The notes under the pieces are model-generated. The model worked only from the letters and a program-made list of their open reading frames with translations, was not told the origin of the DNA and ran no database searches. 64,000 nucleotides of DNA from Bacteroidales bacterium (GTDB taxonomy: Bacteria; Bacteroidota; Bacteroidia; Bacteroidales; UBA932). A program made the translations under genes and the position numbers. The stretch lies in assembly GCA_017447265.1 (NCBI GenBank), contig JAFSOA010000015.1:186001-250000 (forward strand). The letters are read 5' to 3'. Positions 7,461 to 38,251 of the stretch are shown one piece after another (the stretch's first letter is position 1; each line of letters opens with the position of its first letter).

Positions 7461-7607
7461 GCTTGCGCTGACACTCTGGAAATTGCCTTTCGGACCGACG
7501 CTTCGCGTCTCCCTCCCAAAGCCGCCGGCTTTGGGCCCCTCCCGCTATCAAGCGCGGGTGCTTAGGGTCCTCAAGGCAATATTCCACCCGTGTCCGTACG
7601 CGCAAGC
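7461..7607 (-). repeat. Structured repeat, copy A (147 bp, three-armed fold)
   Basis: Read on the minus strand it forms nested stems: GCTTGCGC/GCGCAAGC, GACAC/GTGTC, an internal loop gggt/aga, GGAA/TTCC, ATTGCCTT/AAGGCAAT, and GGACC/GGTCC. The head has three hairpins with stems CCCGC/GCGGG, CCCAAAGCC/GGCTTTGGG and GACGC/GCGTC. Copies B (7654-7802) and C (38105-38251) share the layout with different paired bases. The outer stem reaches back to the amidase stop codon (pairing from 7458), so the element could also serve as a terminator for that gene. It contains no convincing open frame. Confidence 0.85.
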
Positions 7608-7653
7608 ATTTATTCCTGTGAAGAACCAAGTTTTTGCCTCATGGTCAGTTCTG

Positions 7654-7802
7654 ATTGCTTGCGTTACAGCGCGGGTGATACTTGCTCCCGCAACCCATGC
7701 CACCCTCGGCACTGTAAGAGGGAGGGGCCCATGCGCAGCATGGGAGGGGTCGAGCGCAGCGAGACGGTTGCGGAGCAAGTGTCAGAGCGCAACGCAAGCA
7801 AT
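7654..7802 (+). repeat. Structured repeat, copy B (149 bp), upstream of uvrB
   Basis: It has the same plan as copies A and C with different stem sequences: ATTGCTTGCGTT/AACGCAAGCAAT, GCGC/GCGC, internal loop gggt/aga, GAT/GTC, ACTTGCTCC/GGAGCAAGT, GCAACC/GGTTGC. The head arms are CCCTC/GAGGG and CCCATGC/GCATGGG, plus a weak third arm. The head keeps GGGAGGGGCCCA and TGGGAGGG as in the other copies. It lies opposite to copy A and ends 23 bases before the uvrB ATG, so it may sit in the uvrB leader. Together A and B fill the 366-bp gap between the amidase and uvrB. No gene is seen there. Confidence 0.8.
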
Positions 7803-7825
7803 TATCGAAGGAGAACGGTAGACAA

Positions 7826-9826
7826 ATGAATTTTGAGTTGACAGCACCCTATCAGCCGACCGGGGACCAGCCGGAGGCCATCAGGCAGATCGTAGCGTCG
7901 ATCCGCGAGGGGAATGCTGCGACCACACTCATGGGCGTCACCGGTTCCGGCAAGACCTTCACCATGGCCAACGTCATCGCGACGCTCAACCGCCCCACCC
8001 TCATCCTCAGCCACAACAAGACCCTCGCCGCCCAACTTTACAGCGAATTCAAAGCCTTCTTCCCCAAGAACCTCGTCGAATACTTCGTTTCCTACTACGA
8101 CTACTACCAGCCCGAAGCCTATCTCCCCACCACCGATACGTATATCGAGAAAGACCTGAGCATCAACGACGAGATCGAGAAACTCCGGCTCAGCACGTCC
8201 TCCGCCCTGCTCTCCGGCCGCCGTGACGTCGTCGTCGTGTCGTCCGTATCCTGCCTTTACGGCATCGGCAACCCGGACGACTTCCATGAGACCACCGTAC
8301 ACGTGGAATGCGGCCAGAAACTCAGCCGGCAGAAGTTCCTCTACAGCCTCGTCGACGCCCTGTATTCCCGCAACGAAAGCGAATTCAAGCGCGGCACTTT
8401 CCGCGTGAAGGGCGACAGCGTCGATATCTTCCTGGCCTACGGCGACTACGGCTGCCGCGTCGTATTTTTCGGCGACGAGATCGAAACCATCGAAACCATC
8501 GATCCCGTCAGCGGAGCCACCCTCGAGTTCCTGAACGAGATTTCGATCTACCCCGCCAATAACTTCGTCACCACGAAGGAACGCACCCGCAGCGCCATCG
8601 CCACTATCCAGGATGACATGATGGCCCAGTGCGCCTACTTCGAGGAGATCGGCAAGCATCTGGAAGCCAAACGCCTCAAGACCCGCGTGGAATATGATCT
8701 GGAGATGATCAAGGAGGTCGGCTACTGCCCCGGCATCGAAAACTACTCGCGTTACTTCGACGGACGCAGCGCCGGCATGCGGCCCTTCTGCCTGCTGGAC
8801 TACTTCCCCGACGACTTCCTGACCTTCATTGACGAGAGCCACGTGACCATTCCCCAGATCCGGGCTATGTCGGGCGGCGACCGCAGCCGCAAACAGACCC
8901 TGATCGAATATGGCTTCCGCCTCCCCGCCGCCGCAGACAACCGCCCGCTGCGCTTCGATGAATTCCAGGCCCTCGTGGGCCAGCGCCTCTACGTGAGCGC
9001 GACCCCGGGCGACTACGAACTGGAAGAGACCGGCGGCGAAGTCGTGGAGCAGGTGGTGCGTCCCACCGGCCTGCTGGACCCGCCCATCGAAGTGCGGCCC
9101 ATCGAAGGACAGATCGACGATCTGCTGGAAGAGATCCAGCTCCGAGCCGAGAAAGACGAACGCGTGCTGGTGACCACCCTGACCAAGCGCATGGCCGAAG
9201 AACTCGAGAAATACCTGACCCGCCTCGACATCCGCACCCGCTACATCCACTCCGATGTGGACACGCTGGAGCGCGTGGAGATCCTGGACGATTTCAAGGC
9301 CGGCCGCTTCGACGTACTGGTGGGCGTCAACCTGCTGCGCGAAGGCCTGGACCTGCCCTCCGTGTCGCTCGTGGCCATCCTCGACGCCGACAAGGAAGGC
9401 TTCCTGCGCTCCGACCGGAGCTTGACCCAGACCGCGGGCCGCGCCGCCCGCAACGTCAATGGACGCGTGATCATGTACGCCGACAAGATTACCGAATCGA
9501 TGCAGGCCACCATCGACGGCACCAACCGCCGTCGCGCCAAGCAGATGGCCTACAACCAGGAACACGGCATCACGCCGACCCAGGTGGGCGTCACCGCCCA
9601 CAATGCCGTACAGGGCCAGAAGACCTACGCCGACGCTCCGGACGACAGGGCCCGCTTCCTCGAGGAAGACCCCGTGATCGCCCGCATGAGCCAGGCAGAA
9701 CTGAAAACCGCCATCGACGCCGCCCGCCGGCAGATGGAAGCCGCTGCCGCACAGCTGGATTTCACCGCCGCTGCGCGCTGGCGCGATGAGATGCGGGCAT
9801 TGGAAACCCTAGCCGGAAAGAGATGA
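7826..9826 (+). CDS. uvrB: Excinuclease ABC subunit UvrB
   Basis: This 666-aa damage-loading helicase subunit of nucleotide excision repair takes over DNA from UvrA and recruits UvrC. The Walker A motif GVTGSGKT lies near residue 40. The beta-hairpin region YYDYYQPEAYLP, the DESH box FIDESHVT and helicase motif VI (QTAGRAARN) follow. The C-terminal UvrB/UvrC interaction helix is present (ARMSQAELKTAIDAARRQMEAAAAQLDF). It has full family length and a purine-rich RBS (GGAGAA). Its last codons overlap the next gene by 4 bases (ATGA). It is encoded with uvrA two genes downstream. Confidence 0.98.
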   Translation: MNFELTAPYQPTGDQPEAIRQIVASIREGNAATTLMGVTGSGKTFTMANVIATLNRPTLILSHNKTLAAQLYSEFKAFFPKNLVEYFVSYYDYYQPEAYLPTTDTYIEKDLSINDEIEKLRLSTSSALLSGRRDVVVVSSVSCLYGIGNPDDFHETTVHVECGQKLSRQKFLYSLVDALYSRNESEFKRGTFRVKGDSVDIFLAYGDYGCRVVFFGDEIETIETIDPVSGATLEFLNEISIYPANNFVTTKERTRSAIATIQDDMMAQCAYFEEIGKHLEAKRLKTRVEYDLEMIKEVGYCPGIENYSRYFDGRSAGMRPFCLLDYFPDDFLTFIDESHVTIPQIRAMSGGDRSRKQTLIEYGFRLPAAADNRPLRFDEFQALVGQRLYVSATPGDYELEETGGEVVEQVVRPTGLLDPPIEVRPIEGQIDDLLEEIQLRAEKDERVLVTTLTKRMAEELEKYLTRLDIRTRYIHSDVDTLERVEILDDFKAGRFDVLVGVNLLREGLDLPSVSLVAILDADKEGFLRSDRSLTQTAGRAARNVNGRVIMYADKITESMQATIDGTNRRRAKQMAYNQEHGITPTQVGVTAHNAVQGQKTYADAPDDRARFLEEDPVIARMSQAELKTAIDAARRQMEAAAAQLDFTAAARWRDEMRALETLAGKR

Positions 9827-11787
9827 TGTTACCCAAGAAACTGCAAGAGATCCTGAGCGACTTCTCCGAGCGCGAGAAAAAGATGGTGCTTTCGGCCTAT
9901 GAAGCCGCTGCCGAAGCCCTGCAGGGCAAGATGCGCAGCAACAGCAGCCCGTTCATCGAGCACCCGCTCGGCGTGGCCCACATCGTGTGCAAGGAAATCG
10001 GCCTGCGCGCCGACGCCGTCACCGCCACCCTCCTTCACGAAGCCAACCGCTTCCAGGCCCACCACGTGTCCGAACTCAACAAGACCCCGCTGCTGGAATC
10101 GTTCCGCGCCGAGTATCCACACGACATCATTGAGATCGTGGAGGGCCTCAACAACATCTCCAACGTGCAACTGCAGGAAACGAACCTCGACGAGGAACGC
10201 TACCGCAAACTCATCATCTCCTACTCCACCGACCCGCGCGTGATTCTCATCAAGCTCGCCGACCGGCTCGAAGTGATGCGCACCATCAGCATCCTGCCGC
10301 CCGCCAAGCGGACGAAGAAACTCATGGAGACGATGATGCTCTACATCCCCCTCGCCCACCAGCTGGGCCTGTACCGCATCAAGAGCGAACTGGAAGACAT
10401 CTTCCTCAAATATACCGAGCCCGAGCGCTACAAGGAGATTGTCCGCCGGATCAAGGAAACCGAGCCCCAGCGGGAAGCCCTCTTGGAGCGATTCATCAAT
10501 CCACTGCGGGAGAAACTCGACAAGGAAGGCATCCGCTACATTCTCAAGGCCCGTACCAAGAGTCCGTATTCCATCTGGAAGAAGATGCAGACCCAGCAGA
10601 TCACCTTCGACAAGGTATATGATCTCTTCGCCATGCGCTTTATCATCGATTGCGAACCGGACCACGCCAAGGAGGAAGCCCTCTGCTGGAAGGTATACTC
10701 CCTGGTGACCGAAGAATATACCCCGGACACCCGCCGCCTGCGCGACTGGATTTCCAAGCCGCGCGACAACGGCTACGAGTCGCTCCACACCACCGTGCAG
10801 ACCAAGGAAGGCCTGCCCGTGGAAGTGCAGATCCGTACCAGACGCATGGACGAGATCGCCGAAAAGGGCCAGGCCGCCCACTGGTCGTACAAAGGCATCA
10901 AGGGCGGAGGCGGCGACCGCCTCACCGACTGGCTCAACCAGGTCCGCGAACTGATGCAGAGCGACGACGAGGAGAAATACGAACACGCCGCCCTGTCCCT
11001 CGACGAACTGCTGGTCTATACGCCCACCGGCGATTTGCGACAGCTCCACGCCGGCAGCTGCGTGCTCGACTTCGCATTCGAGATCCACAGCAACCTGGGC
11101 CTGCGCTGCACCGGCGCCCGCATCAACGGCAAGATGTGCTCGATCCGGGAAAAGCTCCACACCGGCGACGTGGTGGAGATCATCAGCAGCAAGAACCAGA
11201 AACCGACCGCCGACTGGCTGAACTTCGTGGTCTCCTCGAAGGCCCGCAGCAAGATCAAGCAAAAGCTCAAGGAAGAAGAGAACGCCCGTGCGGCCATCGG
11301 CAAGGAACTGCTGGCGCGCCGGCTCAAGAACTGGAAGCTCGTGATCTCTGATGCCGAGCTCTTCCGGCTGGCCCGGAAAAACAAGTTCAACACGCTGAAC
11401 GAGTTTTTCGGCGCCATCGGCAACGGGCAGCTCGACGTGGCCATCGTCAAGGATTTCCTGACCCGCCAGCTGGAGACCGAGACGGCTGTCGAAACCAAGA
11501 CCGAAAACGTCCAGGCCGGGAGGGCCAGTACCGCCAGCGGCGATTTCATGATCGACCGCAAGCTCAAGGGCGTTGAACTCAAACCTGCCAAATGCTGCAC
11601 GCCGGCCTATGGCGATCCGATCTTCGGATTCCTGACCATCCGCGACGGCATCAAGATACACCGGGAGAACTGCCCGAATGCGGCGCGCCTGCGCGAGAAC
11701 TATCCCTACCGCGTGATTGAAGTCAGCTGGGCCCCCAGACAGAAAGATGGAGACAAAGGAGATACACATAAGAGGCGCCAGGGTTAA
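9823..11787 (+). CDS. RelA/SpoT homologue, probable synthetase-only, ACT domain missing
   Basis: This 654-aa long-form RSH makes (p)ppGpp. The N-terminal HD domain is degenerate: His47 (IEHPLG) and Asp147 (KLADRL) remain, but the HD pair reads His72-Glu73 (LLHEANRF), the following ED pair is lost, and the usual Asn of DRLHNMRT is Val151. The synthetase domain is intact (RTKSPYSIWKKM, YDLFAMRF, NGYESLHTTV, VEVQIRT, AAHWSYK). TGS (about 390-450) and the Cys-Cys zinc-finger region (CCTPAYGD) follow. The C-terminal ACT domain expected after RVIEVSW is absent, as the frame stops about 15 residues later. The 3' end overlaps uvrA by 41 bases. Confidence 0.9.
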   Translation: MMLPKKLQEILSDFSEREKKMVLSAYEAAAEALQGKMRSNSSPFIEHPLGVAHIVCKEIGLRADAVTATLLHEANRFQAHHVSELNKTPLLESFRAEYPHDIIEIVEGLNNISNVQLQETNLDEERYRKLIISYSTDPRVILIKLADRLEVMRTISILPPAKRTKKLMETMMLYIPLAHQLGLYRIKSELEDIFLKYTEPERYKEIVRRIKETEPQREALLERFINPLREKLDKEGIRYILKARTKSPYSIWKKMQTQQITFDKVYDLFAMRFIIDCEPDHAKEEALCWKVYSLVTEEYTPDTRRLRDWISKPRDNGYESLHTTVQTKEGLPVEVQIRTRRMDEIAEKGQAAHWSYKGIKGGGGDRLTDWLNQVRELMQSDDEEKYEHAALSLDELLVYTPTGDLRQLHAGSCVLDFAFEIHSNLGLRCTGARINGKMCSIREKLHTGDVVEIISSKNQKPTADWLNFVVSSKARSKIKQKLKEEENARAAIGKELLARRLKNWKLVISDAELFRLARKNKFNTLNEFFGAIGNGQLDVAIVKDFLTRQLETETAVETKTENVQAGRASTASGDFMIDRKLKGVELKPAKCCTPAYGDPIFGFLTIRDGIKIHRENCPNAARLRENYPYRVIEVSWAPRQKDGDKGDTHKRRQG

Positions 11788-14536
11788 CAACCTGCAGAAT
11801 ATCGACCTGGACATTCCGCTCGGGAAACTGGTGGTGATCACCGGCATCTCGGGCAGCGGCAAGAGTTCGCTTGCCTTCGACACGCTGTTTGCCGAAGGCC
11901 AGCGCCGTTTTGCCGAAAGCCTGTCTTCCTTCGCCCGCCAGTTCCTGGGCCGCATGAGCAAGCCCGACGTAGACCTGATCTCCGGCATTCCGCCGGCCAT
12001 CGCCATCGAGCAGAAGGTCAACACCCGCAATCCCCGCTCCACCGTGGGAACCAATACGGAAATCTACGACCACCTGCGCCTGCTCTTCGCCCGCATCGGC
12101 AAGACGTATTCGCCGGTCTCCGGCCGGGAAGTCCGCTGCGACACTGCCCGCAACGTCGTGGATTACCTCACCGCGCTGCCGGAAGGCTCCACGGCCCTGC
12201 TGCTGGCCGACATCCGCTGGCAGGAAGGCAGCAGGACAGAAAAGATCCTGAGCCTCAAGGAAGAAGGCTATTCGCGCCTGGCCACATGCGACGGTCGCAT
12301 CGCCAAGATGGACGAAGCCCTGCAACACATGGAGGACTTTCAGGACGAATGGATGTTGCTGGTGGACCGCCTCACCGTGGCCCGCGATGAAGATACCGTG
12401 AGCCGGGCCCTCGACTCCGCACAGACCGCCTTCGCCCAGGGCGGCGGCTACCTCTGCGTCTGGAACGAACAGGCCGGCGTCCGCCGCTTTTCCAATCTCT
12501 TCGAAGCCGACGGCATGCGCTTTGAAGAGCCCAGCGAGCATCTGTTCAGCTACAACAGCCCGCTGGGCGCCTGCCCCGTATGCGGCGGCTACGGCAAGAC
12601 CATCGGCATCGACGAGGCGCTCGTGGTCCCCGACCCCACTCTGAGCGTCTATCAGGGCGCTATCGCCTGCTGGCGGGGCGAGATGATGAAGCAGCTCAAC
12701 GACGAGCTGGTGATGAACGCCTACAAGTTCGATTTTCCCATCCACAAACCTTACATCGAACTTACGTCCGAACAGAAAGAGACCCTGTGGCGCGGCAACG
12801 AATTCTTCACCGGCATCGACCCCTTCTTCAAGTGGGTCGAGAGCCAGCGCTACAAGATCCAGTACAAATACATGCTCAGCCGCTACTCGGGCAAGACCAC
12901 CTGCCATGCCTGCGGCGGCTCGCGCCTGCGCCCCGAAGCCCTCTACGTGAAGGTTGGCGGCAGGAACATCCACGAACTGATGACCATGCCCATCAGCGAG
13001 CTGGTGCGGTTCTTCGACCAGCTGGAACTGGACGCGTATGACCGCACGATCGCCGAAAGGCCCCTGCGCGAGATCCGCTCCCGTCTGGGCTATATCGAAT
13101 CGGTGGGGCTGGGCTACCTCACGCTGAGCCGTCCGTCGAACACCCTGAGCGGCGGCGAAAGCCAGCGCATCAACCTGGTCAGCTCGCTGGGCAACAACCT
13201 GGTGGGTTCCATGTATATCCTCGACGAGCCCAGCATCGGCCTGCACGAGCGCGACACGCAGCGCCTGATCGGGGTCCTGCAGCGTCTGCGCGACCTGGGC
13301 AACACCGTCATCGTGGTCGAACACGACCGTCACATCATCGACGCGGCCGACCAGCTCATCGACATCGGCCCCTACGCCGGTTCGAACGGGGGCCGGGTGG
13401 TCTTCCAGGGAACCATCGCCGAAGGCATCGCGAGCGGCGCACGCTCGCTGACGCTCGACTATCTCTCGGGCCGGCGCAGCATCCCCGTCCCTGCCCGGAA
13501 ACGCAGTTGGAAGTATGCCATTGAAGTGGCGGGCGCCCGGGAAAACAACCTCAAGAACATTGACGTGAAGTTCCCGCTGCGCTGCCTGACCGTGGTCACC
13601 GGCGTGAGCGGCAGCGGCAAGAGTTCGCTCGTGGGCGACATCCTCTACCCCGCCGTCTACCGCCAGCTCAACCAGATCGGCAGCAAACCCGGCATCTACC
13701 GGGAACTCAGGGGCGACCTCAACAAAATTGCCTCCATCGAATACATCGACCAGAACCCCATCGGCAAGAGCACCCGCTCCAATCCTGTCACCTACCTGAA
13801 GGTATACGACGACATCCGCAAGCTCTTCGCCGACCAGCCCTATGCCCGGATGAACGGCTACGGACATTCGCATTTCTCGTTCAACATCGACGGCGGCCGC
13901 TGTCCCGAATGCCTGGGCGAAGGCGTGATCCACATCCCCATGCAGTTCATGGCCGACGTGGAAATGGTGTGCGAGGCCTGCGGCGGCCGGCGTTTCCAGA
14001 GCGACATCCTGGAGGTGAAATACCAGGGCAAGAACATCAGCGACGTGCTCGACATGCGCGTGGAGGAAGCCATCGCGTTTTTCCGCGCCCAGCCCGAGCC
14101 GCTGGCGCGCCGCATCGCCGAACGGCTGCAGCCGCTGGTGGACGTGGGCCTCTCCTACCTGCAACTGGGCCAGAACAGCAGTTCGCTCAGCGGCGGCGAG
14201 AGCCAGCGTATCAAGCTGGCCTCTTTCCTGGGAAAGGATTTTGAAGCCAAGGGCTCCATTCTTTTCATCTTCGACGAGCCCACCACGGGCCTGCACTTCC
14301 ACGACATCGAGAAGTTGCTGGCCGCGTTTGCGGCGTTGGTCGACCGGGGACACTCCATCGTGGTGGTGGAGCACAACCTCGACGTGATCCGTGCCGCCGA
14401 CTGGGTGATCGACCTGGGGCCGGATGCGGGTGAAGCAGGCGGGCAAGTGGTGTTCGAAGGAACGCCCGAAGAATTGGCGCAAGCCGGCACGTTTACCGGT
14501 GCGGCCTTGCGCGAAGACATGAAAAAAGAAAGATAA
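11747..14536 (+). CDS. uvrA: Excinuclease ABC subunit UvrA
   Basis: This 930-residue-class ABC ATPase recognises DNA lesions. The start METKEIHIRGARVNN is preferred to the upstream in-frame ATG at 11717 because it matches the family's beginning. The first Walker A GISGSGKS is near residue 32 and the second, GVSGSGKS, near 620. There are two signature motifs LSGGESQR, two Walker B segments with DEPSIGL and DEPTTGL, and zinc-finger cysteines CPVCGGYG/CHACGG and CPECLGEG/CEACGG. Length is typical. It lies in the same transcription unit as uvrB and the RSH gene, whose last 41 bases it overlaps in another frame. Confidence 0.97.
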   Translation: METKEIHIRGARVNNLQNIDLDIPLGKLVVITGISGSGKSSLAFDTLFAEGQRRFAESLSSFARQFLGRMSKPDVDLISGIPPAIAIEQKVNTRNPRSTVGTNTEIYDHLRLLFARIGKTYSPVSGREVRCDTARNVVDYLTALPEGSTALLLADIRWQEGSRTEKILSLKEEGYSRLATCDGRIAKMDEALQHMEDFQDEWMLLVDRLTVARDEDTVSRALDSAQTAFAQGGGYLCVWNEQAGVRRFSNLFEADGMRFEEPSEHLFSYNSPLGACPVCGGYGKTIGIDEALVVPDPTLSVYQGAIACWRGEMMKQLNDELVMNAYKFDFPIHKPYIELTSEQKETLWRGNEFFTGIDPFFKWVESQRYKIQYKYMLSRYSGKTTCHACGGSRLRPEALYVKVGGRNIHELMTMPISELVRFFDQLELDAYDRTIAERPLREIRSRLGYIESVGLGYLTLSRPSNTLSGGESQRINLVSSLGNNLVGSMYILDEPSIGLHERDTQRLIGVLQRLRDLGNTVIVVEHDRHIIDAADQLIDIGPYAGSNGGRVVFQGTIAEGIASGARSLTLDYLSGRRSIPVPARKRSWKYAIEVAGARENNLKNIDVKFPLRCLTVVTGVSGSGKSSLVGDILYPAVYRQLNQIGSKPGIYRELRGDLNKIASIEYIDQNPIGKSTRSNPVTYLKVYDDIRKLFADQPYARMNGYGHSHFSFNIDGGRCPECLGEGVIHIPMQFMADVEMVCEACGGRRFQSDILEVKYQGKNISDVLDMRVEEAIAFFRAQPEPLARRIAERLQPLVDVGLSYLQLGQNSSSLSGGESQRIKLASFLGKDFEAKGSILFIFDEPTTGLHFHDIEKLLAAFAALVDRGHSIVVVEHNLDVIRAADWVIDLGPDAGEAGGQVVFEGTPEELAQAGTFTGAALREDMKKER

Positions 14537-14545
14537 ACATAAACT

Positions 14546-17094: not shown

Positions 17095-17107
17095 TTCGAG
17101 GAAGCAA

Positions 17108-17115
17108 TATATTTG
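17108..17115 (+). promoter_or_regulatory. -7 box (TATATTTG) for the TPR/AraC regulator
   Basis: TATATTTG ends 21 bases before the ATG at 17137 and follows the esterase stop by 13 bases. The regulator therefore has its own promoter. Confidence 0.6.
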
Positions 17116-17136
17116 TATTTTTGGGGAATCCTTCTT

Positions 17137-18822: not shown

Positions 18823-18834
18823 ATTTTGCAGAAT

Positions 18835-18890
18835 TGGCACAATGTTTTGTAGGGGTGGCACAACGGGCCACCCCTCTTCGCATACCTTTG
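18835..18890 (+). promoter_or_regulatory. AraC-style direct-repeat operator, hairpin and promoter
   Basis: TGGCACAATG (18835-18844) and TGGCACAACG (18856-18865) are direct repeats exactly 21 bp apart, two helical turns. A perfect 9-bp inverted repeat AGGGGTGGC/GCCACCCCT (18851-18859/18867-18875) overlaps the second repeat. The -7 box TACCTTTG is at 18883-18890, so the second repeat falls where a -33 element would be and no good -33 sequence is seen. This is the arrangement expected for an AraC-family activator site. The hairpin may alternatively terminate the regulator mRNA. Confidence 0.6.
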
Positions 18891-18915
18891 CAAACGGATT
18901 ACATGAGCAAAGCGT

Positions 18916-20336: not shown

Positions 20337-20357
20337 CGCTGTAGCATAAAAACCAAG

Positions 20358-20382
20358 AAATTGCGGCTGTTGTCGCAATTTT
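20358..20382 (+). terminator. Intrinsic terminator after the BspA-like gene
   Basis: AAATTGCG (20358-20365) pairs with CGCAATTT (20374-20381) across an 8-base loop, followed by a short T run. It lies 22 bp after the stop codon. Confidence 0.6.
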
Positions 20383-20453: not shown

Positions 20454-20462
20454 CGGCTGATT

Positions 20463-25531: not shown

Positions 25532-25557
25532 CTCGTTGATTTTTTCTGAATGTTAAA

Positions 25558-27481: not shown

Positions 27482-27490
27482 GGTCAGACT

Positions 27491-30610: not shown

Positions 30611-30622
30611 CTGACACAGTTT

Positions 30623-32098
30623 CTATTTTATTTTCTTTTTCCAGGTGTCAAAAATGATTTCGTCTTTGATGTCAATGCCGCCATAATATCCATTTGTAAT
30701 TCCACGTCCGCCGAATATCCAAAGCATGTCGCCAACCGGCACAAGACAGGGGCGGGTCCTGCCTTTGAAGAACTCGGGCATCGCCACTTCTCCTTCAAGT
30801 GAAGCCCAATGGACGCCGTCGGTAGAACGGAAAACCTTATTGGAAGCCTTCAGGGTACGTCCTTCTTCCCCTTCGGCAAAATACTCACCCCCGACCATAT
30901 ACAGTACATCGGTGGTTCCTGCCACGCGCATGTTCCACATTTTGCCAAAACCCGCGTCCGCTACTTCTTCATTCCAAGTCAGACCTCCGTCAACTGAACC
31001 ATATACCTCGCCATGATACCATCCCGAATTCTTCGGATCAGCATCGATATAATTCTGGAATCCGCCGGCCACGTATAGTTTCCCTTTGAAATTATACAAT
31101 GCATAACACGACATTTTGGCCGGCATGCTCTCTTTATCAACGCCTTCAAAGGCATTCCATGTGATACCGTCCGTGGTGTTCGCCAGACTGAAAGACTTCT
31201 GAATCTGACCGAAGACACAACCGAGACCGCCATATAACGTGAGTTTGTTTCCTTGTATGAACAGGCGGCTGTCGACATATGCACCAAGGGCACCACTTGC
31301 ATCGACCGGGGTATCCTTGGTCCAGGTTTCGCCGTCAGAGGTGGAGCAGAGGAACAGTTGAGAAATGTCCGGGAACATGCCCCACATGGTTTCAGGAGCG
31401 TTTCCGTCTTCATCCGTTCCATAGAATCGTCCTCCGCCGAATGCCCAGAGCTTTTCATTGAAAACAAGCAGACGGGCTCCATAGGCGCCTACCACCTTGA
31501 TGCCAGTATCCACTTTCGTCCAGTTCAGGCCGTCCTCGGACTTGTAGACATTGTAGAATGCAGGATTCTCTTCGGCCGTTCCCTCGGGGTATGACGAGGT
31601 AATCGCAAAGAACTTGTCCTTGAAGTAAGCGATGTCAAAATAGGCGCAGTCCGGGAAGCCGCTGGTTCTCATGTCTGCGGTTATGCGCTTTCCTTCGTTC
31701 TGGCTCTTGTCATTTGAATCTTCAACAAGCTGCAACGTATATTGAACCTGTTTCTCTTCCTTTACGACGGTCAGCATCACAGGTTCGGAAAGATCAACTT
31801 CGGTGACACTGCTTTCAAGTACCGCGCCTTTATAGTAGACGGTAGAGCCGATGGTGGAAGTGTATGTAATCTTCATGACGTACATCGATGGCGCCATGCC
31901 TGGTTCCACCGGATCATTCGCGTTTGAGATGATATGCATGTCTTGGTTGACGGAACATTCGAGCGACTGTCCGGTACGCATGATGAAAGAGGCGGAAAGA
32001 ATTCCGATGGTCTCCTCTTTTTCCCTAAAACAGGACAACGGCAGCACCGCCGTCACACAGCAAAGTGCCACAAGCACGTAAACGTGAATTTTTTTCAT
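30623..32098 (-). CDS. Lipoprotein with Kelch/BNR-like propeller (DUF6242-like)
   Basis: This 491-aa protein has a lipobox (PLSCFREK), an N-terminal beta domain to about residue 130, and then repeated segments of the type YKSEDGLNWTKVDTG, CSTSDGETWTKD, NTTDGITWNAFEG, YGSVDGGLTWNEE and RSTDGVHWASLEG. These are Asp-box/Kelch-like blades of a beta-propeller. The layout fits the DUF6242 proteins often found with SusCD. A likely role is surface ligand binding. It precedes SusC by 12 bp. The family call is by pattern memory. Confidence 0.75.
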   Translation of the reverse strand: MKKIHVYVLVALCCVTAVLPLSCFREKEETIGILSASFIMRTGQSLECSVNQDMHIISNANDPVEPGMAPSMYVMKITYTSTIGSTVYYKGAVLESSVTEVDLSEPVMLTVVKEEKQVQYTLQLVEDSNDKSQNEGKRITADMRTSGFPDCAYFDIAYFKDKFFAITSSYPEGTAEENPAFYNVYKSEDGLNWTKVDTGIKVVGAYGARLLVFNEKLWAFGGGRFYGTDEDGNAPETMWGMFPDISQLFLCSTSDGETWTKDTPVDASGALGAYVDSRLFIQGNKLTLYGGLGCVFGQIQKSFSLANTTDGITWNAFEGVDKESMPAKMSCYALYNFKGKLYVAGGFQNYIDADPKNSGWYHGEVYGSVDGGLTWNEEVADAGFGKMWNMRVAGTTDVLYMVGGEYFAEGEEGRTLKASNKVFRSTDGVHWASLEGEVAMPEFFKGRTRPCLVPVGDMLWIFGGRGITNGYYGGIDIKDEIIFDTWKKKIK

Positions 32099-32132
32099 GA
32101 TTGTCTATTGTTTAAGATGTGATGTTTTTTCG

Positions 32133-33272
32133 TCAGGATTCGGCAAGAAGCTCGGCAATCGCCTTCTCTACAGCTTCTCCCCGCAGGTTCTTTGAAACTA
32201 TCTTTCCTTCTCTGTCGAGCAGGAGGATGAAGGGTATTCCGCTGAACTGGTACAGTTCCATGACCTCAACGCCATTGTTCGAGGCGATGGCTTGCGGCCA
32301 TTCCATTTTTTCTTCTTCAAGCGCTTGTCTCCACGCCTCTTCCTTACTGTCTATCGAAATGCTCATGATTTCCACGCCCTGATACCTGAACTGTTTATAC
32401 ACTTTTTTTAAATTAGGCACCTCCTGGCGGCAAGGCCCGCACCAGGAAGCCCAGAAATCGATCAGGAGAATCTTTCCTTTAAAAGATGCGGGGCCGATTT
32501 CACTGCCGTCGGCGGCGGTGCAGGTGAACGGAGGGGCAGGCTGTCCCGGCATCATCCTTCTGATTCTTTCTCTCTTGGCAGTTATTTCTTCCATCATGGA
32601 TATTGCCGGCCTGTAGCCGGGATGTGCGGCAAGGACCTCTCGCATCGCAGACTCGATCAACTCCTCATCTTTTATCACATGCAGCTGCTCAATCGCAGCA
32701 AGCACGCTCGTGGAACCCGAATATTTCTCAATGAGATAGCGGAGTCGGGCATCCCGGTCCGCCTCATTTGCGTCGTATAGTTCAGCAGAGATTCTGCTCT
32801 TGTCTTCGGCAGATGAGATACCGTCTTTGTAAGTTGCCCGGGAAATGGCGATCATGTTCTGATAACTACGATGGTTGTTATAATTCAAATCGTTCATGAT
32901 CTCATTCTTGGCACTGCCCCTAATGGCTACGAAAGGAGGATTCTTAATGATTATCCTGGCCGTGTCCCTCCCTCTGAAGTCAATGACCATGTCCTCATCC
33001 TCGGCCCATAAGGAAACGGACTGCCAATGACCGCAGTCCAAAAGATACACGCCGGGGTCATCGATGACGGCTTTTATTTTGTAATTGCCGTCGCTGTCCG
33101 GGGAAACGGCGGCAATCGTATCCCTGACATGGCCTTTCATGGAAATCAGGACCATATCCATATCGGGATCCGGGAATGCAACATGGCCGCTGATTGTAAT
33201 GGAATGATTGGTTGAACAGGCAACCATTGCTGCAAGAAGCAGAAAAACCGAAAGAATCTTTGATGTCTTCAT
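32133..33272 (-). CDS. TlpA-like thioredoxin lipoprotein with N-terminal DUF4369-type domain
   Basis: This 379-aa lipoprotein (AMVACSTNHS) has an N-terminal beta-sandwich of the DUF4369 type (ITISGHVAFPDPDMDMVLISMKG), a helical middle, and a C-terminal TlpA/ResA domain from about 245. The redox motif is WCGPC, followed by the cis-Pro region FSGIPFILLLD. Such proteins reduce or exchange disulfides in the periplasm. It is the first gene of the SusCD transcript. A thiol-redox enzyme in a SusCD unit is a recurring arrangement without a proven substrate. Confidence 0.9.
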   Translation of the reverse strand: MKTSKILSVFLLLAAMVACSTNHSITISGHVAFPDPDMDMVLISMKGHVRDTIAAVSPDSDGNYKIKAVIDDPGVYLLDCGHWQSVSLWAEDEDMVIDFRGRDTARIIIKNPPFVAIRGSAKNEIMNDLNYNNHRSYQNMIAISRATYKDGISSAEDKSRISAELYDANEADRDARLRYLIEKYSGSTSVLAAIEQLHVIKDEELIESAMREVLAAHPGYRPAISMMEEITAKRERIRRMMPGQPAPPFTCTAADGSEIGPASFKGKILLIDFWASWCGPCRQEVPNLKKVYKQFRYQGVEIMSISIDSKEEAWRQALEEEKMEWPQAIASNNGVEVMELYQFSGIPFILLLDREGKIVSKNLRGEAVEKAIAELLAES

Positions 33273-33309
33273 AGAAAGTATCTTGAAAAGAATGATGTGG
33301 CATTTTTTT

Positions 33310-33369
33310 CAAAAATACTATCCTTTTTATTCACATAATTATTTGACACAAAAGATATTACAAAAGATA
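33310..33369 (-). promoter_or_regulatory. Promoter and tandem operator candidates for the SusCD unit
   Basis: The minus-strand -7 box TATTTTTG lies at 33310-33317, 37 bases before the first ATG. Upstream are two copies of ACAAAAGATA on the plus strand at 33348-33357 and 33360-33369, exactly 12 bp apart. The extended form ACACAAAAGATA (33346-33357) recurs upstream of the LuxR-type gene at 34296-34307, suggesting a shared regulator. Confidence 0.45.
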
Positions 33370-33461
33370 GGAATTTTTGCCTCTCCCTGTAGGGCCTTAT
33401 TCATGTCTAATACGTCCCCGGGGGGAAGTCGCGCAAGACCCTGATTTGCGCAGCGAAACTA

Positions 33462-34214
33462 TTATAAAAGACTATAATTGATGGCCGTAAAAACAGCCTC
33501 GGTTATGCTGCTGACACGCAGTTTGGAGAACAAGACGCGTTTATAGGCTTTTATCATATCCTGCGACTTGCCGAAGGCCACCGCGATTTCTTTCATCGTA
33601 TATCCTTGCGACGAGAGAAGCAGAATATCCTTTTCCACAGAAGTCAGCATGATTCCTTCCTTGTGATACCAGACACCTTTATCCGGCCGGTATTGAAAAT
33701 AGTCCGGATCATTATGTCGTTTTACGATGAAATTCCCCGGCAGTTTACGGGAAGACAGGGAGAAAGTACACAGGATCAGCCAGAGTTCGCCTTTGTCCGT
33801 CAAGGCAAGCGGTGTGATATTCTGGCAGATCAGTCTTTTCTTCCCATCACTGATCACATGGAAATAATAAGACAGTATCAGGTTTGACCGTTCTTCAATG
33901 GGAAAGGACAGGAATAATTCGTGTGTTTTTCGCAAAACTGTCACTATTTCCTTCAATTCATTTTCCGGAATGGCGTCCAGGTAGAATTGATATGCATTTT
34001 TCTTGCTCTCTTCATAACTCCTGCCGACGAAGAAAGAGAAATTGCCACTCCGGTAAATCTGTTTCTTCCGATAAAGGTCTACAATGATAATCGGACGATA
34101 CATATTCCGACTGAAGGCCTCGGCCGTCTTGATATAATTCGCAACAGAACGATATTCATCCACCGGTATTTCTGCAATCTTGAACTGTGTCGTCAGAATG
34201 TCTTTCAGATTCAT
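33462..34214 (-). CDS. LuxR-type transcriptional regulator with PAS-like sensor part
   Basis: This 250-aa cytosolic protein has an N-terminal PAS-like domain (RPIIIVDLYRKKQIYRSGNFSFFVGRSYEE) and a C-terminal LuxR/GerE HTH: LTSVEKDILLLSSQGYTMKEIAVAFGKSQDMIKAYKRVLFSKL. Proteins of this build control neighbouring SusCD-type loci in Bacteroidota. It is encoded just upstream of the SusCD transcript, on the same strand but with its own promoter. A perfect inverted repeat overlaps that promoter, pointing to autoregulation. The inducer is unknown. Confidence 0.88.
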   Translation of the reverse strand: MNLKDILTTQFKIAEIPVDEYRSVANYIKTAEAFSRNMYRPIIIVDLYRKKQIYRSGNFSFFVGRSYEESKKNAYQFYLDAIPENELKEIVTVLRKTHELFLSFPIEERSNLILSYYFHVISDGKKRLICQNITPLALTDKGELWLILCTFSLSSRKLPGNFIVKRHNDPDYFQYRPDKGVWYHKEGIMLTSVEKDILLLSSQGYTMKEIAVAFGKSQDMIKAYKRVLFSKLRVSSITEAVFTAINYSLL

Positions 34215-34218
34215 ATTT

Positions 34219-34307
34219 CTTTGCCTTATTTTTAGGCAAAGTTAAAATGATTTTATCGACAATCTGATAATCTAAAAGACAATTCCCGTGCTATTACACA
34301 AAAGATA
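34219..34307 (-). promoter_or_regulatory. Regulator promoter with overlapping inverted repeat and shared motif
   Basis: The minus-strand -7 box TAACTTTG is at 34237-34244. An 8-bp perfect inverted repeat CTTTGCCT/AGGCAAAG (34219-34226/34234-34241, 7-base loop) overlaps the box and the expected transcription start. The motif ACACAAAAGATA lies further upstream at 34296-34307 and is the same as near the SusCD promoter. Confidence 0.5.
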
Positions 34308-34309
34308 AT

Positions 34310-34814
34310 CACAAAGGAAAACAGGGTAACTTATTCTTTCGTGTCTTGAATCCCCTGCCGGGGCCAGTCCGAAGATCGATGTAAAGCACAGGGCGAATGG
34401 TTTCAGGACACCTTGTCATACCTGAGTTGGAGGGGCAGATTCTTTTCGCCAAATTGCCGCAAAGCGAACGGCCTCCCATCTTATTTGGAGGCCGATTTCG
34501 TTGCACCTACCTCCGAGATGAGGCTCAGGCGCAGGAGGCAATCAAAAAGAACGTTGATTATCAGCTGATTAGATCTGCGCATCTGGCGGCTTCCCGGCCG
34601 AAACGCTGTCGCGCGCCACGCGGCTTTTCGTGACACAGACGGAATAGATGAACGGCTTGTGTCGCTTTCCCCCATCGGCATACCTTCTTCCAACCGTCTT
34701 TCAGTTGCTCTCCCACCCCTTTTTCCACTGATTCAACAAGGCTTGCAGATCGGTCATGGTGTGGCACGCGGAACCCCTTCAGGCGTCGCTCCCGGCGGAA
34801 TGCCGGATGGTCGC
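34310..34814. other. Region without a supported gene
   Basis: About 500 bases with only short frames that lack start signals. It has one 8-bp hairpin CGGCCTCC/GGAGGCCG (34469-34476/34487-34494) that could end transcripts. Minus-strand frames around 34560-34770 are partly protein-like but broken by stops. It looks like decayed coding sequence. Nothing further can be named. Confidence 0.4.
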
Positions 34815-35448
34815 CTAAAAGTCCTCGTCCGGATCCGGCAGGGCGATTTCGCGGAAATAAAACAGCAGGTCGTCGAGATCGATGATCATCTCGACATGCG
34901 TGATCAACAACATCTGAAAGTCCTGCTCCGAAGCATATTGTTCAGCCAGCTCCAACTTCCCGCTTTCTTCCGTCTCCAGATAGTCGGAGATCTGGTCCCG
35001 GAACAACTGGTTGACCAGATGCGCATTGGTGAAGCCCATGCCGCGATGATTGTACTTGTAGAGCACATACATCTCCAGTTTCTGCCGCGCCTCCGGTGAA
35101 AGATGCAGCCCGAACGACCGGCACGACACATCGATCATCCCGAACAATTCTTCTGGCTTGAAATCTTCCAGGAAGAGGGGCTCCGAAAAGTGTTTCTTCA
35201 GCTCCGGATGCTCCGACAGCAAGGAATCCAATCCCAGCCGGTCGCCGGAAAGCACCAGCCTCCACCTGCTGCCGGTTGTTCCCGATACGGACTACCAGCT
35301 TCAACTCGTCCGGCGTGTGGACGTCGGGCAAAACCAGATCGATATGGACGAAGGTCCGGAGGGTGAGCGGAATACTTCAGATCGTTTCTGACACGGGAAA
35401 TTCGGCCGCGCTGTCGTTGATGCAGCAGTACGGCCGATAGTCTCCCAT
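34815..35448 (-). pseudogene. Remnant of an AAA+-like ATPase gene
   Basis: The longest intact part (34815-35255) encodes 146 residues resembling the C-terminal lid of SpoVK/CbbX-type AAA+ ATPases: SEHPELKKHFSEPLFLEDF and EELFGMIDVSC with helical continuation. Upstream in another frame is protein-like sequence (PDVHTPDELKLVVRIGNN). In that same frame, across an in-frame TGA (35377-35379), lies MGDYRPYCCINDSAAEFPVS from the ATG at 35448. So one nonsense codon and at least one frameshift break the gene, and the Walker motifs are gone. It lies 30 bp behind the dehydrogenase gene on the same strand. Confidence 0.5.
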
Positions 35449-35478
35449 TTGTACGTAATCGTCTGTCTTAAAGGGAAT

Positions 35479-36276
35479 TTACTTTACTTTATAAAAAAGT
35501 GACAGCAGGCGCACGAAGGTGCGGGCGGGCAGGATGCGTTTCAGGGGAATGGAGAGTTTCTGGATGAAGGTGGCGATCACGTAGCGGAATTTCGGATGCT
35601 TCCTGCGGACGATCTTCGCGATTTTTGAAGCCAGGTACTCGGGTCTCAAGCCCGTCTGCTCGTCTTTCTCGAAACTGTTCACCGACTGTTTCAGGCTGGG
35701 ATAGGCGGCCGCCGCTTCTTCGGAAACCTGCTTGATGCGCGCCGCGGTGAAGCCGGTCGAAAAGTCACCCGGCTCGATCAGGATGACCTGGATGCCGTGG
35801 CGGCGCACTTCGATCTGCAGCGCCTCGCAAAATCCCTCGATGGCGAACTTGCTGGCCGAATAGAAACCCTGGAACGGCAGGCCCATCACGCCGCCGATCG
35901 AACTGAAACACAAGATCTTGCCACTCCCCTGCCGCCGCATCGCGGGCAGCACGGCCTGGGTGAAGCGTACCTGTCCCATGAAGTTCGTATCCATCTGGAG
36001 CTCCACATCGTCTTCCGGAGCGAATTCCACCGGGCCGCCGATGCCCATGCCGGCATTGTTGACCAGCACGTCGATACGGCCTTCCGCGGCCAGCACCGCT
36101 TCTACGGCGGCCTGCACGGATACCGTGTCACGCACGTCCGCCCGCAGGTAATGCACGCCGGGCAGCTGTTCCACCTCCCGCCGTACCGTTCCATACACTG
36201 TATGCCCGTCGGCGCAGAGCCGCTGCGCCATCGCGAGCCCGAAGCCTGAAGAAATGCCTGTGATCAGTATAACCAT
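35479..36276 (-). CDS. Short-chain dehydrogenase/reductase
   Basis: This 265-aa classical SDR has the NAD(P)-binding GISSGFG motif at residues 7-13, the NNAGMG segment near 75, the catalytic YSASK near 147, and a Ser in SSIGGV ahead of it. An Arg after the first strand (TVRRE) suggests NADP preference. The C-terminal part (PLKRILPARTFVRLLSLFYKVK) is basic and hydrophobic, as in SDRs acting on lipids or steroids. It lies 10 bp after the nuclease gene and is probably co-transcribed from the promoter at 37132-37139. Substrate unknown. Confidence 0.92.
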   Translation of the reverse strand: MVILITGISSGFGLAMAQRLCADGHTVYGTVRREVEQLPGVHYLRADVRDTVSVQAAVEAVLAAEGRIDVLVNNAGMGIGGPVEFAPEDDVELQMDTNFMGQVRFTQAVLPAMRRQGSGKILCFSSIGGVMGLPFQGFYSASKFAIEGFCEALQIEVRRHGIQVILIEPGDFSTGFTAARIKQVSEEAAAAYPSLKQSVNSFEKDEQTGLRPEYLASKIAKIVRRKHPKFRYVIATFIQKLSIPLKRILPARTFVRLLSLFYKVK

Positions 36277-36286
36277 ATTATCTTCA

Positions 36287-37126
36287 TTATTTTAATCCCC
36301 AGTCAGAGAGGCGGACGGTGGATTCGACTTTTTCTTCGATCTTGTCGTCGAGAGCCGGGAAGAAGTCAAAACCGGTGAGGCTCTCCAGATCGTTGATGTT
36401 CAGATAGCAGTCTTTCAGATAGTAACGCTCGTCATCGTTGTCCATGACGAAAGCGATGGCGCTGTAAGATCCATTCTTCTTGCGGATCAGTAGCGCCTTG
36501 TAAAAGGCGTCGGGCACAACCACGTCGCGCTCGCCGATGGTACCGTAGCGGTTTTCGCCCACGATGGGGCCGGTCACGACCCAGACACTCCCATAGCGCT
36601 TGGCCCACTGCCGCACGCGTTTCTCAAGATACTGCCAGTCGCCGGCGTTCAGGGTTTCATCCTGCGGACAGATGTTGGTGAAATAGAAGGTCTCCCCCAT
36701 CGCCGTGCTGTTGAACGCGGCGTCCGCGGCGGGCATCAGATGGCCCTTGGTCCAGCCGGAGCCGGCATAATCCTCGCGCATGGCCTGCCGGACGCCCTTC
36801 AACTGGGGATCCATGCGGAATTCCTTGCCTTCGCGCGAGCGGTCGCCCTCCGTCTCCGCGGCCGTCAGTTCGTAAGCCACCCAGTTGGGAATCAGGGTCT
36901 CCGTATTGTAAGAAGACACATACGCGCCGTGTTGTACGAGGCGGCCGCTCGGTGCGGCGGGAATTTCGAGCAGCCCGCTGATCCCGGCGGGAACGGTCGT
37001 ATTGATTTCTGTTCCCGGGTCATCCGTGTCGCAAGCCGTTTCGGTGCGGTCATGGCCGAACAGGAAATAGAGGATGCCGGCCACGACGATGACCAAGGGA
37101 GCGATGAGGTCTTTGAATTTCTTCAT
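36287..37126 (-). CDS. DNA/RNA non-specific endonuclease, membrane-anchored
   Basis: This 279-aa protein has an N-terminal transmembrane helix (LIAPLVIVVAGILYFLFG) and then a beta-beta-alpha metal nuclease domain. The classical DRGH motif reads TKGH here (GSGWTKGHLMPAADA), keeping the catalytic His and replacing Asp-Arg with Thr-Lys. The metal Asn lies in FTNICPQDETLN, and WQYLEKRVRQWA follows as usual. Family enzymes cut DNA and RNA outside the cytoplasm. Its promoter box lies 5 bases before the ATG and overlaps the divergent promoter of the next gene. Confidence 0.88.
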   Translation of the reverse strand: MKKFKDLIAPLVIVVAGILYFLFGHDRTETACDTDDPGTEINTTVPAGISGLLEIPAAPSGRLVQHGAYVSSYNTETLIPNWVAYELTAAETEGDRSREGKEFRMDPQLKGVRQAMREDYAGSGWTKGHLMPAADAAFNSTAMGETFYFTNICPQDETLNAGDWQYLEKRVRQWAKRYGSVWVVTGPIVGENRYGTIGERDVVVPDAFYKALLIRKKNGSYSAIAFVMDNDDERYYLKDCYLNINDLESLTGFDFFPALDDKIEEKVESTVRLSDWGLK

Positions 37127-37131
37127 GTATG

Positions 37132-37161
37132 CAAATTTACCATTTATTTTGATTAACTTTG
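37132..37161. promoter_or_regulatory. Two divergent -7 boxes within 41 bp
   Basis: TAAATTTG on minus (37132-37139) serves the nuclease gene and TAACTTTG on plus (37154-37161) serves the carboxypeptidase gene. The start codons are only 41 bp apart, with 5 and 6 bases between box and ATG. Each promoter's upstream part lies in the other promoter or gene, so they probably exclude each other. Confidence 0.65.
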
Positions 37162-37167
37162 GGGATT

Positions 37168-38091
37168 ATGAAGAAATATTTACGTCCCGCCTTTTTGAAG
37201 AAGGGCGACACCGTCGCCGTCGTGGCGCTGGCCTCGAGTCTGAGCGAGCAGAGCCGCCAGACCCTGTATTGGAAAGAAATGCTGGAATCGTGGGGACTGC
37301 AGGTCAAAACCGGCCGCCATCTGTACGACAGTGCGCCCGGCGAGTTCGCCGGCCGCGACGAAGACCGGGCGGCGGACCTGACGGAGATGTTGCTCGACCC
37401 TGCGGTGAAGGCCATCATCTCGTTCCGCGGCGGCTACGGCTCGATGCGCACGGTGCGAAAGATGGACCTGTCGCTCTTCGACAAGCATCCGAAGTGGCTC
37501 GTGGGATTCAGCGACATCACGGTTTTCCATGCGGTGCTGCAAAGCCGCGGCATCGAGTCGATCCTCGGGGCGATGCCCAGCACGATTGGACCGGATGCCG
37601 GCCCGGATTCGAAGATCAGCGAAGAATCGCTGCGCAAAGCCCTTTTCGGCGAGATCAAAAGCTACCGGACGGCGCCGTACGACTACAGTGTCCCGGGCTC
37701 AGCCCGGGGCCGCCTGGTCGGCGGCAACCTGAGCCTGGTGGTCTCGTGCCTGCGCACGCCGTGGGAGAATCACCTTGACGAAGACAGCATCCTTTTCATC
37801 GAAGATGTCGACGAACGGATGTACAATCTCGACCGCATGCTGCTTACGCTGCAGCAGGGCGGTTTCTTTGCCCGGCCGAAAGGCATCGTCATCGGCCAGT
37901 TCACCGACACCAGCGGCGAAGACAAGTGGCAGCGCAAGGCCCTGGACCTCGTCCACGAATATATGCCTGCCGACAAGCCAGTGCTCTTCGGCTTCGACTG
38001 CGGCCACGCGCACCCCAACTACAGCCTCTACCTCGGTCGTGAAGTCACCCTCGACGTCACCTCCGACGGCGGCTGTTTGAAGTTCATTTAA
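37168..38091 (+). CDS. ldcA: LD-carboxypeptidase (peptidase S66)
   Basis: This 307-aa enzyme removes the terminal D-Ala from murein tetrapeptides during cell-wall recycling. The nucleophile Ser is in WLVGFSDIT. The Glu is in ILFIEDVDE and the His in the final GHAHPNYSLYLG, completing the Ser-Glu-His triad of family S66. No signal peptide is evident, consistent with cytosolic recycling. The ATG at 37168 lies 6 bases after the -7 box, so the message is probably leaderless. The in-frame TTG at 37159 is rejected because it lies in the promoter box. Confidence 0.94.
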   Translation: MKKYLRPAFLKKGDTVAVVALASSLSEQSRQTLYWKEMLESWGLQVKTGRHLYDSAPGEFAGRDEDRAADLTEMLLDPAVKAIISFRGGYGSMRTVRKMDLSLFDKHPKWLVGFSDITVFHAVLQSRGIESILGAMPSTIGPDAGPDSKISEESLRKALFGEIKSYRTAPYDYSVPGSARGRLVGGNLSLVVSCLRTPWENHLDEDSILFIEDVDERMYNLDRMLLTLQQGGFFARPKGIVIGQFTDTSGEDKWQRKALDLVHEYMPADKPVLFGFDCGHAHPNYSLYLGREVTLDVTSDGGCLKFI

Positions 38092-38104
38092 TAGACGATA
38101 AGGA

Positions 38105-38251
38105 TTGTGCCATCATGGCGCGGGTGGAATGTTGCTTCGAGGACCCTAACCACCCGCGGTTGATTGCGGGAGGGGCCCAAAGCCCTGGCTTTGGGAGGGA
38201 GACTCGCTTGCGAGTCGGTCCGAGAAGCAACTTCCAGAGCGCCTGGCACAA
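38105..38251 (+). repeat. Structured repeat, copy C (147 bp)
   Basis: It shares the plan of copies A and B: TTGTGC/GCACAA, GGCGC/GCGCC, internal loop gggt/aga, GGAA/TTCC, GTTGCTTC/GAAGCAAC, GGACC/GGTCC. The head has CCCGC/GCGGG, CCCAAAGCC/GGCTTTGGG and GACTCGC/GCGAGTC. Against copy A, all three changed positions of the 8-bp stem have matching changes on the other side. It starts 13 bases after the carboxypeptidase stop. The gap 38092-38458 holds this element plus the repeats listed below and no supported gene. Confidence 0.85.

Follow-up and report, generated by a model that had tools for sequence, protein, structure and literature searches.

A dispersed structured repeat of about 150 bp with a pseudoknotted head in Bacteroidales

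What is a sequence of about 150 bp that occurs three times in one stretch of a Bacteroidales genome and keeps its base pairs while its letters change? The window, i.e. the whole stretch of DNA analysed here, comprises 64,000 nucleotides of contig JAFSOA010000015.1 (assembly GCA_017447265.1, positions 186,001 to 250,000). A sequence-only reading had noticed three copies of the element, named A, B and C, and had proposed either a small mobile element or a non-coding RNA. According to our analysis the element is real, widespread and well constrained, and it is probably a new, unusually complex variant of the palindromic mobile elements of the folded single-stranded DNA (ssDNA) kind. The sequences demonstrate the fold, the constraint on its pairing, the strand and the polymorphism of the copies, and from these the action as ssDNA and a recombinase are inferred. 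With a probability of roughly 55%, a mobile element of ~150 bp, dispersed and non-autonomous, gave rise to A, B and C; it resembles the repetitive extragenic palindromic (REP) sequences and their doublets (REPINs) and acts as folded ssDNA.

Fold and pseudoknot of the element

A, B and C have one fold in common. Their coordinates and strands, all stem pairs quoted for them and the three paired changes in the 8-bp stem (ATTGCCTT/AAGGCAAT in A versus GTTGCTTC/GAAGCAAC in C) had been given correctly, and a tRNA check of the element was negative, in agreement with the earlier exclusion of a tRNA. Using DNA parameters for the element strand, ssDNA fold energies of -44.5, -47.3 and -47.6 kcal/mol were obtained for A, B and C, with z-scores of -7.1, -6.7 and -7.5; 0 of 200 shuffled sequences folded equally well. 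The outermost part of the element is a clamp stem with free letters and preserved pairing. Inward of the clamp, most type I and type II copies carry a GCGC-GGG-TGG / CCA-GA-GCGC step, followed by a variable helix. A tandem G.A step comes next in type I copies (by eye also in type III), then a closing helix and finally the head, which consists of the pseudoknot, AGGGG, the hairpin CCCA..TGGG (P3), AGGG and usually one more hairpin (P4). P4 is variable in sequence, and some relatives have none (for example loci L161 and L167).

The head had been described as three hairpins. Head hairpins are indeed present, but the first of them is an H-type pseudoknot, and the head is therefore a pseudoknot plus one or two hairpins. 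Nested folding programs cannot display such a structure. The order of its parts is the 5' strand of stem S1, a purine, the 5' strand of stem S2 (CCCNN), directly followed by the 3' strand of S1, a short linker and the 3' strand of S2 (NNGGG). In other words, a hairpin with the loop (A/G)CCCNN pairs through this loop with NNGGG downstream. The parts of the three copies are as follows, with R1 denoting the covariance model introduced below and G000 the own genome.

7461..7607, minus strand: copy A, type I, by fold and alignment; R1 match of 104.5 bits at G000:C15:193477-193586; order of parts: clamp stem, GGG/GA internal loop, tandem G.A, closing helix, pseudoknot, P3 hairpin, P4 hairpin
7541..7563, minus strand: pseudoknot of A; S1 AAGC/GCTT (7560-7563 with 7550-7553), S2 CCCGC/GCGGG (7554-7558 with 7541-7545)
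7654..7802, plus strand: copy B, type II, by fold and alignment; R1 match of 82.2 bits; 46 bp from A in inverted orientation, the 5' ends facing each other
7698..7722, plus strand: pseudoknot of B; S1 TGCC/GGCA (7698-7701 with 7708-7711), S2 CCCTC/GAGGG (7703-7707 with 7718-7722)
7728..7744, plus strand: P3 hairpin of B, CCCATGC-GCA-GCATGGG with a C-GNA-G triloop; GGGAGGGG and AGGG at its sides
38105..38251, plus strand: copy C, type I, by fold and alignment; R1 match of 104.8 bits
38139-38140 with 38222-38223, plus strand: tandem G.A mismatch of C, dividing the closing helix from the variable clamp stem, by fold and mismatch counts
38141-38145 with 38217-38221 (within 38139..38223), plus strand: closing helix of C, GGACC/GGTCC, by fold
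38148..38170, plus strand: pseudoknot of C; S1 AACC/GGTT (38148-38151 with 38158-38161), S2 CCCGC/GCGGG (38153-38157 with 38166-38170), linker GATT
38171..38199, plus strand: AGGGG, P3 hairpin CCCAAAGC..GCTTTGGG (38176-38195) and AGGG of C, invariant columns in alignment A3 (15 copies); four G tracts, counting the GGG just before
38201..38216, plus strand: P4 hairpin of C, GACTCGC-TT-GCGAGTC

The pseudoknot is carried by covariation of S1, a stem that lay outside the model from which the alignment for this test was produced. After two of 104 rows had been dropped for missing anchors, 102 aligned rows remained, equal to 63 distinct heads. S1 was fully paired in 51 of them, compared to a mean of 15.0 and a maximum of 25 in 5000 shuffles. 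Nine further heads paired at three of the four positions and three at one of four; all were kept in the count. The fully paired heads contained 13 different 5' tetranucleotides (TGCC, GGCC, AGCC, AACC, GTCC, AAGC, CTGC and others). In a set of 34 distinct segments 92.8% of the pseudoknot cells were paired versus 74.1% after shuffling, with a covariation of 0.473 versus 0.135 for shuffled and at most 0.108 for slid structures. These shuffles leave the relatedness of the copies in place, and the slid versions, preserving it as well, served as control. The pseudoknot was preferred to a nested pairing scheme for the head (CC.CCCGC/GCGGG.GG), since the 5' tetranucleotide covaries with the segment directly after CCCNN and not with GG.

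Paired change, family size and mobility

Selection for the fold rather than for the sequence, as claimed before, found support in the relatives, namely in S1 of the pseudoknot, in changes in place and in copies at orthologous sites; paired change exceeded that of shuffles and slid controls in the covariation check the sequence-only reading had proposed. The formal count of in-place changes was limited to site C16:8211 and five genomes (G000; G033, close to G000; G034, G027 and G006, all three with 80-84% flanks). Here, both partners had changed in 7 of the 31 stem pairs and 98.1% of the cells pair; structures slid by 1 to 3 columns gave no two-sided change. In the comparison of further sites, many of the loci listed lacked a copy at the site, and pairs naturally broke. 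At C15:157159 the heads of G000 and G023 are near-identical, with several compensated differences visible by eye in clamp and P4. Furthermore, the two arms match within one copy (median score 35) and not between copies (13), and they drift faster than the heads: 20-nt arms were 0.73 alike at a head identity of 0.9-1.0 and 0.41 alike below 0.6, with random pairs at 0.32.

Instead of three copies, about 20 were found in the own genome (2.13 Mb in 19 contigs) using blastn and a covariance model. A blastn search of G000 with C as query yielded 18 rows, B being absent from them. By sequence and fold, 14 rows were judged copies and four judged chance matches (L013, L016, L017, L018), the latter being left out before the first model. 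The 14 copies and B formed alignment A3 (15 copies), from which model R1 was built. With a cutoff of E <= 1, R1 detected 22 matches in G000, and for 19 of these the E-value was under 1e-13. Further copies proved abundant when the model was applied to relatives, a search suggested with the original observation. Using a cutoff of E <= 0.001, R1 was found in 39 of 100 genomes: 32 of the 40 genomes from the genus, among them G000, 6 of 20 from other genera of the family and 1 of 40 from other families. Genomes of the genus contained from 0 to at least 37 matches; the scan scored up to 37 candidates per genome, and 37 is thus a lower bound. In a broader sample of the order, scanned with filters prone to miss weak matches and with up to 9 candidates scored per genome, R1 was present in 7 of 392 genomes, again including the own one. 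A pattern scan of named genomes, which matched at least 116 stretches in all, found the same heads in metagenome-assembled genomes of rumen and gut Bacteroidales, one labelled Candidatus Cryptobacteroides; an origin of the window near this group is therefore probable.

Most G000 matches (20 of 22) lie outside predicted genes. One is located in frame in a CutC-family gene and one inside a gene prediction presumed to be over-extended at its start. The gene-context table showed sense, antisense, convergent and divergent settings relative to the neighbouring genes, and several copies begin 15-50 bp from the end of a predicted gene. The copy in the CutC-family gene (PF03932, E 5.7e-56 for the scanned G000 protein) is found at G000:C7:315222-315332 (L373 15222-15332) and also in L311; the reading frame is open in both G000 and G026, with ~55 residues added. 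No Rfam family was found at gathering score in the window, and none overlapped the element in permissive scans of six loci with E up to 1 or 5. The literature searched contained nothing recognisable as this element, and its core letters GGGAGGGGCCC gave only matches unrelated by title. Hence, the earlier statement that no described family has this plan holds for Rfam and for this literature, but the general kind, palindromes of the type of REPs, REPINs and bacterial interspersed mosaic elements (BIMEs), is already known.

Empty sites in relatives, whose search had likewise been recommended, were found at several orthologous positions. Site C7:378602 is empty in G007, G026 and G023 (79-90% flanks), and neither arm is present there, which indicates that both arms arrived with the element. 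These three armless sites also refute a copying of the arms from the host flank at insertion, which loci L305 and L271 had suggested. Site C2:10604 is empty in G007, G023 and G027, C15:157159 in G026, G034 and G027, C16:8211 in G023, and C15:129421 in three genomes. Locus L309 of G026 carries an element 97% like G000 C15:129402-129550 at a different site; its flanks match G000 C15:281-282 kb, and the two flanks are separated by 15 bp in G000. Occupied sites are polymorphic as well. At C2:10604, G001 and G026 carry the head in the orientation opposite to G000, with the outer stem common to all, and G033 contains an internally deleted hybrid of both head orientations. At C16:8211, the clamp bears a type II head in G006 and a type I head in the four other genomes. 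The A/B pair is also present in G033 and G001; at the corresponding place in G026 a diverged pair lies in opposite order. Most copies are single. All ten distinct adjacent pairs in the loci examined were arranged 5' to 5' (minus, plus). Doublets, inversions and head swaps are REPIN- or BIME-like behaviour.

Strand, molecule and rival explanations

Compensatory base changes by themselves are no proof of RNA. For mismatches, arm similarity, loops and strand folding, 139 copies were counted, P4 being found in 79 of them. They were chosen by a pattern demanding S2 and at least three of four S1 pairs, and for this reason the counts were not used as evidence for the pseudoknot. On the pseudoknot strand the stems of the 118 copies with a stem contain 169 G.A/A.G versus 7 C.T/T.C mismatches (isolated plus non-isolated), conserved internal loops being counted anew in each copy. 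Compared to its complement, this strand gave the better fold in 130 of 139 copies when DNA parameters were used and in 128 with RNA parameters.

The hairpin loops are the clearest sign of the type of molecule. GNA triloops were found in 48 of 139 P3 loops and 51 of 79 P4 loops. Taking the P3 and P4 triloops together, 99 of 136 are GNA, and 98 of those are closed by C-G, while GNRA loops account for 5 and UNCG loops for 0 of 218. Another 30 P3 loops have 2 nt (18 of them TT), fitting DNA or RNA. As controls, terminator-like hairpins of the same genome gave 0 GNA in 46, though only 7 of the 46 are triloops; among the triloops of other intergenic hairpins with a stem of at least 6, 16 of 139 were of this kind on either strand, and among those of coding hairpins 19 of 597. 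Mini-hairpins with such loops are weaker as RNA than as DNA. The d(GNA) loop with a C-G closing pair is described as a stable DNA triloop, the counterpart of the RNA GNRA tetraloop (PMC5815330), and a melting temperature of 88.5 °C is given for CGCGAAGCG (PMC10527192). Overall, the fold is selected in one strand, and ssDNA is likelier than RNA. From the two possibilities named at the outset, the small mobile element is supported by the relatives, whereas a non-coding RNA is less favoured in view of the C-GNA-G loops and the mixed gene orientation.

The element resembles REPs, BIMEs and REPINs with their transposase TnpA(REP), also named REP-associated tyrosine transposase (RAYT). They too are dispersed, extragenic and palindromic, with a folded single strand recognised strand-specifically, irregular stems with required mismatches and inverted doublets, and compensatory changes are reported for REPIN hairpins (PMC3116915 and PMC8266576). 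In the favoured reading, one strand of the element would become single-stranded, either at the replication fork or when a cruciform is extruded, and would then fold. A protein of the host or of a mobile element might recognise head and clamp as folded ssDNA and might cut, move, invert or convert the element, comparable to TnpA(REP) on REPs or IntI on attC. Recognition would be borne by the sequence-conserved head. The clamp would be required merely as a duplex, and we propose that its letters drift in pairs for this reason. If this holds, the element would be a rare natural case of a complex ssDNA structure, with covariation, G.A steps and DNA-type loops agreeing on one strand; to our knowledge, almost every pseudoknot described in nature is an RNA structure. 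The tens of copies in a genome, together with natural head swaps and inversions, would then provide a test set for fold recognition and movement.

Several observations weigh against the REPIN-like reading. REPs have 20-40 nt, compared to ~150 nt and a multi-helix pseudoknotted head here. No enzyme was tied to the element: R1 had 0 matches in 12 examined RAYT loci of ~2-3 kb, and other hairpins, not the element, stand beside the RAYT genes whose flanks were read. A GTAG tag marks many REPs, but here, of 41 base-motif hairpins, just 13 had GTAG within 25 nt upstream (R1 elements: 8). A target-site duplication was not resolved, as intergenic divergence blurs the ends of the empty sites. The fold is retained at fixed sites, and this could indicate a host function instead of mobility. 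The ten doublets stem from six sites. As for the molecule, G.A steps and C-TT-G loops (TT in 18 of 139 P3 loops) fit RNA too. Isolated G.U versus A.C mismatches numbered 35 to 11, but non-isolated ones were reversed (12 to 24), giving 47 to 35 in total, so that this bias is a weak measure of the strand. A bias for a replication strand was not clear either, since GC skew placed 13 copies on the G-rich strand and 8 on the other (21 in total), and it was dropped as support. Finally, we are aware that the copies are related, that the counts are hence non-independent and that a conserved internal loop is scored once per copy.

RAYT genes themselves remain a lead by analogy only. RAYT-type genes (PF01797) are present in 27 of the 40 genomes of the genus, 25 of these above the family cutoff, and in 2 of the 8 genomes without R1 matches versus 25 of the 32 with them. 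As the cognate enzyme RAYT was rejected, since the genes occur in the genus yet showed no link to copies of the element at the 12 loci examined and in the flanks read. RAYT-like genes (~300-340 codons; G000:C8:24736, C3:132142, C7:300966, C11:34937; L430-L441) have their own hairpins alongside. Several of these hairpins show variable, well-paired stems with CTGATAATCAG-like arms, seemingly another palindrome system drifting in pairs.

Possible, though doubtful, is a more far-reaching view, in which the element would represent a distinct class of folded-DNA mobile elements, defined by the pseudoknot, a G-rich three- or four-way junction and GNA loops, and read by a recombinase that inserts, inverts and swaps heads. 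Somewhat less probable, and in our opinion unlikely, is a structured non-coding RNA, a small ribozyme or a cis-acting RNA, which would have spread as a mobile element with selection on the fold of the transcript. Structured RNA normally shows features seen here, namely a pseudoknot that covaries, G.A steps, specificity for one strand and unpaired nucleotides that do not vary, and RNA parameters favour the pseudoknot strand as well. Nevertheless, GNA triloops predominate among the loops, GNRA tetraloops being few and UNCG tetraloops absent, and Rfam matches were absent. The mixed gene orientation means that many copies would need transcription against their neighbours, and a cis-acting RNA was rejected on this ground; moreover, one copy lies inside the open CutC-family reading frame in two genomes.

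Improbable is a mutational artefact, by which template switching or arm-to-arm conversion during replication would keep the palindromes perfect without selection on the fold. Such copying yields exactly paired change inside long inverted repeats, and the heads inverted in place together with the deleted hybrid in G033 demonstrate that arms do interact. However, copying between arms would wipe out non-complementary internal loops and G.A steps, yet both persist. S1 is short and interleaved with S2 and nevertheless covaries, the loops stay GNA though their middle base varies, and in one case, G033, where another repeat stands in place of the head, the match between the arms is lost. A hairpin downstream of genes that terminates transcription or stabilises mRNA, suggested by the several copies that begin within 15-50 bp of a predicted gene end, is very improbable given the mixed orientation, the range of 0 to at least 37 matches among congeners, the lack of any run of at least 4 T in the 10 nt that follow A, B and C on their element strands (three copies examined) and a pseudoknotted, sequence-conserved head that termination does not need.

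Other known systems and neighbouring repeats

Integron attC sites are alike in that they are recombination sites acting as folded DNA hairpins. Their stem letters vary while the structure is conserved; we know of no pseudoknot in attC. Miniature inverted-repeat transposable elements (MITEs) and small repeats (CIR, ERIC, NEMIS, RPE) are likewise short, non-autonomous, highly structured and mostly intergenic (PMC2229807). In contrast to MITEs, the element has no fixed terminal inverted repeat: the GCGGGTGG/CCAGAGC base is common to just 8 own-genome copies, the arms drift in pairs and the central head is the conserved part. The duplicated target of MITEs has no resolved equivalent here either. 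Rickettsia palindromic elements lie in frame in genes, as one copy of the element does.

The pattern scan also matched Alphaproteobacteria and viral contigs, mostly with an alphaproteobacterial type, of which 48 genome loci and all 25 viral contigs were sorted by eye. These GGGAGGGGCCCA..TGGGAGGG palindromes (Caulobacter, Sphingomonas, Azospirillum) are alike in the core of CCC-hairpin-GGG, AGGGG, CCCA-hairpin-TGGG and AGGG. C-GNA-G loops were found in 41 of 88 P3 hairpins, and the first hairpin had at least 6 bp in 66 of 88. They differ in a first hairpin that is commonly a plain CCCTCTCCC/GGGAGAGGG stem with no visible pseudoknot, in a short outer stem and in that no P4 was seen. The core CCC-hairpin-GGG-A-GGGG-CCCA-hairpin-TGGG-AGGG, for which a G-quadruplex is possible in principle, occurs in Bacteroidota and Alphaproteobacteria. 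The likeness is partly built into the search pattern and is a resemblance of the core, not demonstrated common ancestry.

Other repeats accompany the element. Another hairpin family is simpler and has 55-57 nt (GCGGGTGG..T-rich loop..CCAGAGC); it shows compensated stems, for example at G000:C4:135517-135571 and C3:149344-149398, and the same clamp base as many type I and II copies. Its pattern matched 32 times in G000 (at least one by chance), 37 times in G001 and 30 times in G007, with no match in 22 of the 40 genomes of the genus. All three adjacent pairs of the element with this hairpin in G000 are 5' to 5'. At both G000:C8:91260-92620 and C9:24410-25770 an identical pair of these hairpins is found, in each case 1.3 kb apart, indicating a stretch duplicated in the genome or in the assembly. 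A repeat with GGCGGGGTTTGGGGCAGCGCCCCAGTAA-like letters recurs beside or within element sites (L473, L215, L221, L134), and at C15:157159 of G033 it takes the place of the head. Just past copy C, at 38279-38304 of the window, the palindrome GATGCCCGGTCAAGCCGGGCATGAC or a near variant is located, which is also found at the intergenic sites L220, L227 and L112. Further on, at 38337-38426, a palindromic segment of the kind TCCTCAAATGAG..ATGAGGA is present twice in imperfect form, between C and the next long reading frame.

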